A stretch of 64,000 nucleotides of DNA. It comes from Bacteroidales bacterium. GTDB taxonomy: Bacteria > Bacteroidota > Bacteroidia > Bacteroidales > F082. Positions 26,419 to 29,084 of this stretch are shown here, in pieces. The notes below the pieces were generated by a model. That model saw only the letters and a program-made list of their open reading frames with translations. It was not told where the DNA came from and did no database searches. The number at the start of each line of letters is the position of its first letter. Position 1 is the stretch's first letter. The translations under genes were made by a program, and so were the position numbers. The stretch is taken from assembly GCA_017531225.1 (NCBI GenBank), contig JAFXLL010000008.1, positions 95,932 through 159,931 on the forward strand, written 5' to 3'.

Positions 26419-27492
26419 TTATCCTTGAATCATGTTGTATTGACAGACTTGGAGTTTGCCTTCGCCGTCGCGCAGGTGGAAGCCGTTGCCTTGGCAATAG
26501 CGCCACATCTTGCAATGGGCGCATTGGTCGGTCTTCATCCATTTACGGTCGCGATAGACGTTGAATCTGTTTTGCCACACCTTCCAGAAGCTATCTTGGT
26601 AGATGTTGCCTTGATGGTAGTCGCTGCGGATGCTGAGGCAGCCCGAGATGGAGCCGTCGGCGAGGATGGATGCCACGTTGATGCCGGCGCTGCACGAGTA
26701 GTAGTGGTTGCGCACTTCGCCTTCGTATCTTCCTAAGAAGCCGTCGCAGCCGTAGTCAGCGCGGATCTTGCCTTCGAGCCTTGTCTGTTTGATGAATTCC
26801 ATCATTTGAACGAATTGCTCGTTGGAGAGTTTTAGCTCGGGCTCGTTGGCGGCGCGACCGAAGGGAAACACCGTGAACAGGCGCCACCGCTTGATGCCCA
26901 ATGAGATGAGGTAATCGCGGAACTTCGGCAGGTATTGGATGGTGCGTTGGTTGACGCAGGTGATGACATCCCAGGTGAGATCAGGGTGTTGCTTGAGCGC
27001 TTCCACGGCGACGAGTACGTTCTTGAAACTGCTGGAGTTGCCGCGCATCCAGTTATGGTCCTCTTCAAAGCCGTCGAAGCTGACGGCGATGGACTTCAAG
27101 CCGGCGTCAACGTATTCGTTGAGTTTTTGCGGGGTGAGCAGCATCCCGTTGGATACCATGCCCCACACGAAGCCGCGTTGGGAGATGGCTTTGCCACATT
27201 CTGCCAGGTCGGGGCGCACGGTGGGCTCGCCGCCAGTGGTGATGACCATCACCTTGGCGGGGTCTTCGTGCAGCTTGATTTCATCAAGCACGCCGACAAA
27301 GTCGGCGAGGGGCATGTCATCCTTCTCGGAGAGCATGCGACAGTCGGAGCCACAGTGCACACAGTTGAGATTGCACCGAAGGGTACATTCCCAAAACAGC
27401 TGGTGCAGTTCGTGCTCTTCGATCCGGTCTTGCAGCGTGGCGCGGTTGAGTTCGAGCATCAGCCTTTTATATAGGCCGAGCTTCTCACTCAT
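26419..27492 (-). CDS. Radical SAM/SPASM enzyme (TIGR04133-like), partner of the adjacent lipoprotein
   Basis: The 357-residue protein has the radical SAM cluster CNLNCVHC (Cys40, Cys44, Cys47), GGEPTVRPDL (SAM-binding GGEP) and LTWDVITCVNQRT. The C-terminal SPASM region has CSAGINVAS, a GCLSI segment, and CAHCKMWRYC with Cys324, Cys327, Cys333 and a last Cys350, enough for auxiliary iron-sulfur clusters. Such SPASM enzymes modify peptides or proteins. As I recall, the Bacteroidota family TIGR04133 is encoded next to a small lipoprotein, and here the upstream 95-residue lipoprotein gene overlaps this one by 8 bases. The modification made is unknown. An anaerobic enzyme acting in the cytoplasm before export of its partner is the simplest model. 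Confidence 0.85.
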   Translation of the reverse strand: MSEKLGLYKRLMLELNRATLQDRIEEHELHQLFWECTLRCNLNCVHCGSDCRMLSEKDDMPLADFVGVLDEIKLHEDPAKVMVITTGGEPTVRPDLAECGKAISQRGFVWGMVSNGMLLTPQKLNEYVDAGLKSIAVSFDGFEEDHNWMRGNSSSFKNVLVAVEALKQHPDLTWDVITCVNQRTIQYLPKFRDYLISLGIKRWRLFTVFPFGRAANEPELKLSNEQFVQMMEFIKQTRLEGKIRADYGCDGFLGRYEGEVRNHYYSCSAGINVASILADGSISGCLSIRSDYHQGNIYQDSFWKVWQNRFNVYRDRKWMKTDQCAHCKMWRYCQGNGFHLRDGEGKLQVCQYNMIQG

Positions 27493-27772
27493 TCTCTAAT
27501 TCCTTGATTTGTTGCTTGATGCTTTCAGCTTCTTCTCTCAGTCTTCTGGTCTCCTCGCCGTATTGTTTGATGATCTCAGGAGAGCCATAAACACAGGCTC
27601 CTTCACGGCGTTGGATGATGTTGTTGATGGAGTCGAGCTGTTGGGTGAGTTGGACGACTTTTTGATGCTTTTCTTCCTTGTCCTTGTTGACTTTGTTCTG
27701 GGTGGTGCAGCCCACGATGAAAGCCAGTCCTGACAACAGGCCGATCCATACGTTTCTAACGACTTTCTTCAT
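27485..27772 (-). CDS. Small lipoprotein, candidate substrate of the radical SAM enzyme
   Basis: The 95-residue product has a hydrophobic N-terminus and lipobox IVGC with Cys22, so it is a predicted lipoprotein. A charged coiled coil (about 28-57) follows, then a short break REGACVYGSPEII at 56-68 containing Cys60, Tyr62, Gly63 and Pro65, then a second helix (about 69-94). The break is the only non-helical, aromatic/cysteine-containing part, and it is the obvious target or recognition site for the overlapping radical SAM gene. I recognise it as the lipoprotein type paired with TIGR04133-like enzymes. The function of the mature protein is unknown. It starts two bases after the deaminase gene stop. 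Confidence 0.75.
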   Translation of the reverse strand: MKKVVRNVWIGLLSGLAFIVGCTTQNKVNKDKEEKHQKVVQLTQQLDSINNIIQRREGACVYGSPEIIKQYGEETRRLREEAESIKQQIKELENE

Positions 27773-27774
27773 AA

Positions 27775-28254
27775 TTAATATTCTGTTTTATCTGTTTTTT
27801 CTGTCCAAAGTTTAAAGGAACTCAGTGCCTCTTCGTTGAGCATGTGGATGAATGGCACGGAGCGGCGGTCGATGGGCTTGTCGAGTTCTTCGTAGATGAA
27901 GTCATCGGCAAAGTCGATGTCGCGCGCGTCCTTTTTGGTGTTGCCGTAGTACACGCAGCGGAGGTGAGCCCAATAGATGGCGCCGAGGCACATGGGGCAG
28001 GGCTCGCATGAGGTGTATATCACGCAATCGGAGAGGTCAAAAGTGCCCAACTTGCGGCATGCCAGACGAATGGTATTCACCTCGGCGTGGGCGGTGGGGT
28101 CGTTGTCGATGGTGACACTGTTGGAACTACCTGCGATGATCTCACCGTTCCTCACGATGACGGCGCCGAAAGGCCCTCCGCCGTTCCGAACGCTCTCGTC
28201 GGCAAGACGGATGGCCTCGCGCATGAATGTCTTATCTTGTTCAGTAACAATCAT
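27775..28254 (-). CDS. guaD: Guanine deaminase-like nucleobase/nucleoside deaminase
   Basis: The 159-residue protein has the cytidine-deaminase-fold zinc site: HAE at 56-58 (His56 ligand, Glu58 proton shuttle) and PCPMC with Cys86 and Cys89. The C-terminal part, DIDFADDFIYEELDKPIDRRSVPFIH, closely follows that of the B. subtilis GuaD type of guanine deaminase, whose swapped C-terminal end closes the active site; tRNA adenosine deaminases lack it. The reaction would be guanine to xanthine plus ammonia. It overlaps the flavodoxin-like gene upstream by 4 bases and is followed after two bases by the small lipoprotein gene. No purine-uptake or xanthine-use genes are seen here. Confidence 0.85.
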   Translation of the reverse strand: MIVTEQDKTFMREAIRLADESVRNGGGPFGAVIVRNGEIIAGSSNSVTIDNDPTAHAEVNTIRLACRKLGTFDLSDCVIYTSCEPCPMCLGAIYWAHLRCVYYGNTKKDARDIDFADDFIYEELDKPIDRRSVPFIHMLNEEALSSFKLWTEKTDKTEY

Positions 28255-29084
28255 TGTCTTTGTCTAACTACTTGGGTGAATTCAGGGGCTTGACCGTCCA
28301 TTACGTTGACATAAACCTTCATTTGGCCCGCTGGAGGCATGTCTGGGGCATCCTCACGAGGAAGGTCGACGGCGACAAACAAGTATTCGGTGCCACCGAG
28401 AATGGCGCGTGAGCAGAAATACTCAGCCTTGGCATGTATCATCGGGTAGTCGCCAACAGCCGCGTTGAAGATGGCTTCTTCGGTTTCGGTCACAGGTTTC
28501 ATTTCGTTGAAGTCTTCCAATCTGACGAAGTCACCCTCGATGAATTGGTTTTCTTTCAGGAATTGGTCGACCTCATTGGGCATGGCCGCCAAACGTGCTG
28601 CACGGATACCGAAACCCGTGGGTATTCTTGAGTTAGGCAGTTTCCTAACCAAGTCTTGAACGCTTGAGGATAAACCGCCGCTGCCGAAGGTGCAGAAGGG
28701 GACAACGGTCTTGCCGCTCAGGTCGATCTGATCCAACAAGGAAGCAATAGGTGGAGCGTATGTGCCGAACCACACAGGGTAGCCGATGAAGATGGTTTCG
28801 TACTTTTGGAGATTGGCTTTGATGGGTTTGATTTCAGGGATAATACCATTTTTGCGCTCCTGAAGACAGCGGTCGACGGTAGCTTCGAAGTCGCCATCGT
28901 ATGGGTTCACGACGACGATCTCTTCCAAGTCGGCATTCATCCGTTTGGCGATCTCCTGAGCCACGGCCTTGGTGTTTGAAGTCTGAGAATAATAGAGTAC
29001 AAGAGATTTTGGTTTCTTGGGTCCACATGACACGGCGACCATCGTTACTGTCGCAAGGACCAACATGAATTTCAATGCTTTCAT
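28251..29084 (-). CDS. Flavodoxin-like lipoprotein
   Basis: The 277-residue protein starts with a hydrophobic signal ending AVSC (Cys20), a slightly loose lipobox, so it is probably an exported lipoprotein. A flavodoxin fold follows, with LVLYYSQTSNTKAVAQEI, the FMN phosphate-binding loop, then FIGYPVWFGTYAPP and VVPFCTFGSGGL for the two flavin-flanking loops. About 100 extra residues (175-277) form a separate C-terminal part with FNAAVGDYPMIHAKAEYF that I cannot assign. Flavodoxins carry electrons in the cytoplasm, so an exported one is unusual and would need flavin in the periplasm. It heads the five-gene run ending in the glucan synthase and overlaps the deaminase gene by 4 bases. Confidence 0.83.
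   Translation of the reverse strand: MKALKFMLVLATVTMVAVSCGPKKPKSLVLYYSQTSNTKAVAQEIAKRMNADLEEIVVVNPYDGDFEATVDRCLQERKNGIIPEIKPIKANLQKYETIFIGYPVWFGTYAPPIASLLDQIDLSGKTVVPFCTFGSGGLSSSVQDLVRKLPNSRIPTGFGIRAARLAAMPNEVDQFLKENQFIEGDFVRLEDFNEMKPVTETEEAIFNAAVGDYPMIHAKAEYFCSRAILGGTEYLFVAVDLPREDAPDMPPAGQMKVYVNVMDGQAPEFTQVVRQRQ

Follow-up and report, generated by a model that had tools for sequence, protein, structure and literature searches.

A conserved YGxP site in lipoproteins paired with TIGR04133 radical SAM/SPASM enzymes of Bacteroidales: a candidate target of splicease-like maturation

What does a radical SAM/SPASM enzyme do to a small lipoprotein whose gene overlaps its own? The question is raised by two genes on the minus strand of the window, the whole 64,000-nucleotide stretch of Bacteroidales DNA that was analysed. 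The enzyme is encoded at 26419..27492 (357 residues) and the lipoprotein at 27485..27772 (95 residues), and the two reading frames share 8 bases (27485..27492), as the initial annotation of this DNA had described. The lipoprotein begins with a signal peptide (27707..27772) that carries the lipobox IVGC and runs through Cys22, which was also correctly annotated. That annotation went on to propose that Cys60 is crosslinked by the enzyme. We suggest instead, with a probability of about 0.55, that the enzyme is a splicease-like maturase that acts on lipoproteins before their export. The sequence comparisons described below suggest that part of a tyrosine is cut from the backbone to leave a reactive ketone, rather than that a cysteine crosslink is formed.

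Among named records, the nearest are metagenome assemblies of Bacteroidales, many of them from rumen and gut. A deaminase and a flavodoxin-like lipoprotein are encoded upstream of the pair on the same strand (window 27775-29084). These two genes were rejected as parts of the system, since they are found in only 11 and 5, respectively, of the 135 loci scanned, some of which are short and some duplicates.

The enzyme and its cysteines

The enzyme scores 552.9 bits against the TIGR04133 model, for which the curated cut-off is 425, and is thus a member of that family. The highest score against any other model is 119.6 bits, for TIGR04053. TIGR04103, which we take to be the same as IPR026482, the PlpX-type splicease, gives 119.4 bits, far under its curated cut-off of 725, and the heme b synthase model gives a similar 115.8 bits. 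The Pfam Radical_SAM and SPASM models both score over their cut-offs. The pairing of a TIGR04133-type enzyme with a small lipoprotein, which the initial annotation had pointed out, therefore holds for these adjacent genes. The lipoprotein itself was not matched by the model of its named partner family, TIGR04134 (cut-off 39.8 bits), in a scan at E ≤ 0.1, and its membership of that family was rejected.

The CxxxCxxC motif of the SAM-binding cluster is present as annotated (C40, C44, and C47; 27352..27375), but the full set of SPASM cysteines is not. A canonical SPASM domain has seven cysteines, while the window enzyme has six, C267, C285, C324, C327, C333, and C350 (26443..26694), and the last cysteine of CX2CX5CX3C is Gly337. 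Among 17 aligned TIGR04133 sequences, position 337 is Gly in 14 and Ala in 3, and the other six cysteines are invariant (17/17). The missing cysteine is kept in all 14 sequences of the TIGR04103/GDL side. Cys249 is found in all 17 TIGR04133 sequences, and our guess is that it might replace the lost SPASM cysteine.

The conserved site of the lipoprotein

Residues 56-68 of the lipoprotein, REGACVYGSPEII, include Cys60, Tyr62, Gly63, and Pro65. In an alignment of 25 coil-type lipoproteins such as this one, our proposed substrate, the invariant residues include Cys22, Tyr62, Gly63, and Pro65 (25/25), together with Glu66, so the segment around Tyr62 is indeed a conserved feature. The same alignment does not bear out the expectation that Cys60 would be equally fixed, with Cys at this place in 20 of the 25. 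The conserved site can be written as XYGxP, here Val61-Tyr62-Gly63-Ser64-Pro65 (27578..27592).

A larger set gives the same picture. Coil units recognised by their flanks number 110, in 79 distinct relatives, and contain Tyr-Gly in 109 cases and Tyr-Asp in one; a looser pattern, with duplicates counted, gives 146 and 1. The place of Cys60 in the 110 units is occupied by Cys in 70, Ala in 28, Val in 5, Ser in 4, Arg in 2, and Thr in 1. SPASM enzymes form thioether and C–C links, and cysteine is the commonest residue at this place in both sets, as would be expected if Cys60 were joined to a neighbouring residue in the way first proposed. However, the 40 units with other residues stand beside the same enzyme family, and this makes Cys60 a very improbable half of a crosslink. 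A conserved acceptor cysteine, as for Cys-thioether maturation of the sactipeptide or ranthipeptide kind, was not found in either the 25 aligned lipoproteins or the 110 units.

We also collected 147 distinct lipoproteins of the coil and other kinds, picked for holding YGxP, which provide 235 motif contexts. The X residue of XYGxP is Val in 122, Leu in 40, Ile in 32, Cys in 23, and others in 18, and the −2 position is Cys in 97 and Ala in 60, a tally that includes the lipobox Ala of ACYG lipoproteins. One copy of the motif is present in 78 of these proteins, two in 50, and three in 19, and it is thus repeated in 69 of the 147. The Tyr codon is TAC in 58 and TAT in 44 of 102 distinct DNA stretches (L001-L110), and the Gly and Pro codons are variable, which shows that the constraint acts on the protein. 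Two XYGxP DNA patterns are not enriched in the window's own genome, where they gave 9 and 11 matches and the reversed-pattern controls gave 29 and 9. By eye, the only lipoprotein-like matches among these 20 are those in the window lipoprotein and in the lipoprotein of the C9 paralogue, and one match (L215) lies in no ORF.

The association of YGxP with the enzyme was examined for 109 distinct enzymes by a motif-blind rule, which takes, whatever its content, the longest of the ORFs that end where the enzyme starts. Such an ORF exists for 107 enzymes, and 104 of these adjacent ORFs contain YGxP (a kinase described below is counted among them), against a background of 61 occurrences in 244,300 residues from 625 other ORFs at these loci. 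The counts are not independent events, since many of the loci are closely related. At the three exceptions, the genome has an unlinked YGxP lipoprotein on another contig (L029 and L172, genome G004), the partner reads EYGVR, with the Pro absent (L116), or the end of a CYGTP lipoprotein gene lies 704 bases upstream (L143). The two enzymes with no such ORF have a partner downstream, with CEYGTP (L114), or three YGxP lipoproteins upstream (L127). An earlier tally, in which 84 of 84 adjacent ORFs had the motif, is weaker evidence, since the picker favoured YG-bearing ORFs.

The TIGR04133 enzyme is rare across the phylum, being found in 3 of 395 evenly drawn genomes, with the window's own included. 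Co-occurrence was followed in 61 genomes, most of them from one genus. The coil lipoprotein is present in 28 of 28 genomes with a coil-type enzyme (a first-clade match of ≥545 bits, with G049 left out for its TIGR04134 partner) and in 0 of the 33 others, the groups having been defined after the partners were seen. When any enzyme match over the family cut-off is counted, it is present in 28 of 35 genomes with the enzyme and 0 of 26 without. Two further genomes (G013 and G023) were rejected as carriers; their weak matches are to the signal peptide only, and the proteins are really small LYGPP and IYGPP lipoproteins.

YGxP is also found in other scaffolds, in copies at unlinked sites, and in tandem arrays, such as a row of six lipoprotein genes (L179). 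A search of 393 genomes for TIGR04134 gave 57 over the cut-off, and YGxP is present in all 30 of the loci fetched, in 29 by script and in L240 by its correct ORF, which has two motifs. The enzyme regex matches in 28 of these 30 loci; L242 has a variant of it, and L246 has no enzyme among the ORFs listed. The X residue is mostly Glu in the TIGR04134 lipoproteins (21/29), whereas it is mostly Val, Leu, or Ile in the coil kind. One TIGR04134 lipoprotein (L113) has a carboxypeptidase-regulatory-like domain. In a second clade of TIGR04133, the enzyme was recognised by regex in 18 of 20 regions fetched (not L144 or L145). Each of these 18 encodes, upstream of the enzyme, a lipoprotein containing ACYG[TSAV]P, in which the lipidated Cys is itself the X of XYG. 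The window's own genome has a second TIGR04133 enzyme (C9:202388-203422, L126), with a 65-residue lipoprotein that contains MQACYGTP. A TIGR04133 and TIGR04134 pair, with SCYGMP, was also seen outside Bacteroidota, on plasmid pTS1 of Treponema saccharophilum (L112).

Substrates need not be lipoproteins, judging from one locus (L030, 1192-3860, genome G027), where neither of the two proteins that flank the TIGR04133 enzyme is a lipoprotein. One is a Ser/Thr kinase whose C-terminal linker contains two YGPP sites, and the other is a 96-residue protein that also has YGPP. Two other loci (L042 and L065) have an extra protein of 88 or 89 residues, with TYGCP or VYGCP and no evident signal peptide. 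Since such different proteins, all beside one enzyme, have YGxP in common, it is the probable site of the enzyme's action. Could it instead be an unmodified docking or sorting signal, with the enzyme modifying another protein? The motif does occur shortly after the lipidated Cys in the TIGR04134 and short lipoproteins, as a sorting signal might. However, in the coil lipoproteins it is in mid-protein, it is often repeated, it occurs in a kinase linker and other non-lipoproteins, and the coil lipoprotein tracks the enzyme among genomes. We consider a docking or sorting signal improbable.

Relationship to the spliceases

XYG is the site of the PlpXY splicease, which is spliced with loss of C8H9NO, and the tags given in passages of PMC10533398 include PIRPLYGLPI. 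XYG is likewise the splicease substrate in portions of PMC11002830 and PMC10373908, and in the former PlpX is given as IPR026482 and PlpY is described as a truncated RRE. Since the fixed pattern at our site is the documented splicease substrate XYG, excision of tyramine would fit it better than a thioether or C–C bridge.

The likeness to PlpXY extends to several features. The window enzyme is also a SPASM radical SAM enzyme, the lipoprotein has an XYG site (VYGSP), YGxP is found in one published tag, several sites may occur in one substrate, and a TIGR04103 enzyme falls on the TIGR04133 side of the tree. However, the proposed substrate is a lipoprotein, TIGR04133 is short of one SPASM cysteine, and the score of 119 bits compares with a TIGR04103 cut-off of 725. 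No RRE partner resembling PlpY was recognised in family scans of the neighbours, in which there was no RRE model, and a PlpY-like single-sequence query of the window's own genome, a weak test with one query, gave a best E of 0.32. Family scans of the window lipoprotein gave no match to a Nif11 or NHLP leader, and it has a lipoprotein signal peptide instead. We have not filed the system as TIGR04103/PlpXY because of these results for the model score, the RRE partner, and the leader.

Two other known systems are similar in part. The TIGR04133/TIGR04134 pair, which NCBIfam lists as hypothetical equivalogs, shares with the window the TIGR04133 enzyme, an adjacent lipoprotein gene, and YGxP in both kinds of lipoprotein, but the lipoprotein of the window is not matched by TIGR04134, and X is mostly Val, Leu, or Ile in its kind, compared with mostly Glu. 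The GDL-motif maturase TIGR03913, with DUF1843 peptides, also falls on the TIGR04133 side of the tree, and several of its peptides contain xYG. However, these peptides are short and come in twos or threes, Tyr is sometimes followed by Ala or Met, and no YGxP was seen in them.

A tree of 39 sequences was made from 17 TIGR04133, 14 TIGR04103/GDL-side, and 8 outgroup enzymes; it covers no sactipeptide, ranthipeptide, or other SPASM maturases, and the ingroup was partly picked through TIGR04103 matches. TIGR04133 and the TIGR04103/GDL side share one side of a branch with support of 95/97, and this becomes 100/98 after dropping three long outgroups and seven TIGR04133 sequences. In the reduced tree, in which outgroups are few and four are still long, TIGR04133 is sister to the whole TIGR04103/GDL side, but with support of 84/76 this is not firm. 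The alternative that joins TIGR04133 with the AhbD-like, TIGR04053, and NirJ sequences, a grouping chosen with the first tree already known, is disfavoured in the reduced set at a p-AU of 0.0135. In the first tree, a narrower clade of TIGR04133, Nostoc, and GDL alone was not recovered, and with a p-AU of 0.202 is not rejected. Trp203 is present in 31/31 ingroup sequences compared with 1/8 of the outgroup, and Thr178 in 31/31 compared with 2/8. The TIGR04133 stem is long, with 2.34 and 2.14 changes per column in the two trees.

This long stem and the lost SPASM cysteine would permit divergent chemistry, and the conservation of YGxP would also fit if another radical reaction centred on Tyr, such as epimerisation, crosslinking through Tyr, or removal of its side chain, left the backbone unspliced. 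We regard such chemistry as possible but unlikely. The X, −2, and +2 positions vary widely, so the only constant crosslink partners near Tyr are Gly and Pro, and XYG is already known as a splicease motif. The splicease-like reading is supported by the gene pairing, the near-invariant Tyr, Gly, and Pro, the independence from Cys60, the varied scaffolds, and the tree grouping.

Proposed reaction, role, and other candidate substrates

In the splicease-like mechanism that we propose, the enzyme would work in the cytoplasm on the X-Tyr-Gly-x-Pro sites of prolipoproteins. Tyramine would be excised from the backbone at YG, and the predicted site in the window lipoprotein lies within the peptide EGACVYGSPEIIK. 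The lipoprotein would then be exported, cut at Cys22, and lipidated.

What might the function of such a modification be? Spliceotide products are protease inhibitors, according to parts of PMC11117315. This reported inhibition by spliced peptides, together with the varied X residue, is the basis for our guess of an anchored protease trap, in which ketoamide sites that inhibit proteases would be displayed on the envelope; we hold this role to be doubtful. A broader proposal is tentative, and we think it has less than an even chance of being right in full. It is that envelope lipoproteins encoded in Bacteroidales, and on at least one Treponema plasmid, carry one to several backbone α-keto-β-amino acids, installed by a splicease family that uses neither a RiPP leader nor an RRE partner. 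For the second clade, the homologated residue would be the N-terminal Cys that is lipidated, giving a new lipoprotein N-terminus, and the ketoamides, with X as Val, Leu, or Ile, Glu, or Cys, would be anchored electrophilic traps, for example for proteases.

The YGxP result suggests for the named TIGR04133/TIGR04134 pair a single reaction that can be tested and for which a mass shift is predicted. If the proposal is true, backbone-ketone chemistry extends to lipoproteins in the envelope of a dominant order of gut bacteria, and reactive ketones could be put into proteins for labelling by enzymes that are independent of a RiPP leader. A product of TIGR04133/TIGR04134 was not found in the papers searched under these identifiers or the NCBIfam pair names, though the family may already be in Scott et al. 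2022. The words lipoprotein and splic- are absent from passages of the Bacteroidales RiPP survey PMC10352776.

Among the 14 TIGR04103/GDL-side enzymes, a plausible nearby xYG protein was found for 8 (L111, L118, L119, L120, L146, L147, L149, and L151) and not for 6 (L125, L148, L150, L152, L153, and L156), and so a uniform splicease identity of this side is not established. One Nostoc plasmid encodes a TIGR04103 enzyme (853 bits, cut-off 725) after a Nif11 precursor whose C-terminus reads ALYGLPPELF and before a 71-residue protein. DUF1843-type peptides beside GDL-type maturases (L118, L120, L146, and L147) have xYG, xYA, or xYM near the N-terminus and are loosely splicease-like. Possible precursors beside TIGR04103-like enzymes are a 35-residue ORF with PVMYGTGV on an Agathobacter rectalis plasmid (L119) and a 165-residue ORF with RLLYGTPP (L149, genome G285). 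A 214-residue protein (L151:2955-3599, genome G298), which neither Pfam nor NCBIfam models match at E ≤ 0.01, is encoded beside another TIGR04103-like enzyme (218 bits). A chagasin-like N-terminal domain was considered for it and rejected, with no Pfam match and structure matches at chance level only. With its six KYGYP repeats, in which X is Lys, this protein may be a splicease substrate with several sites.
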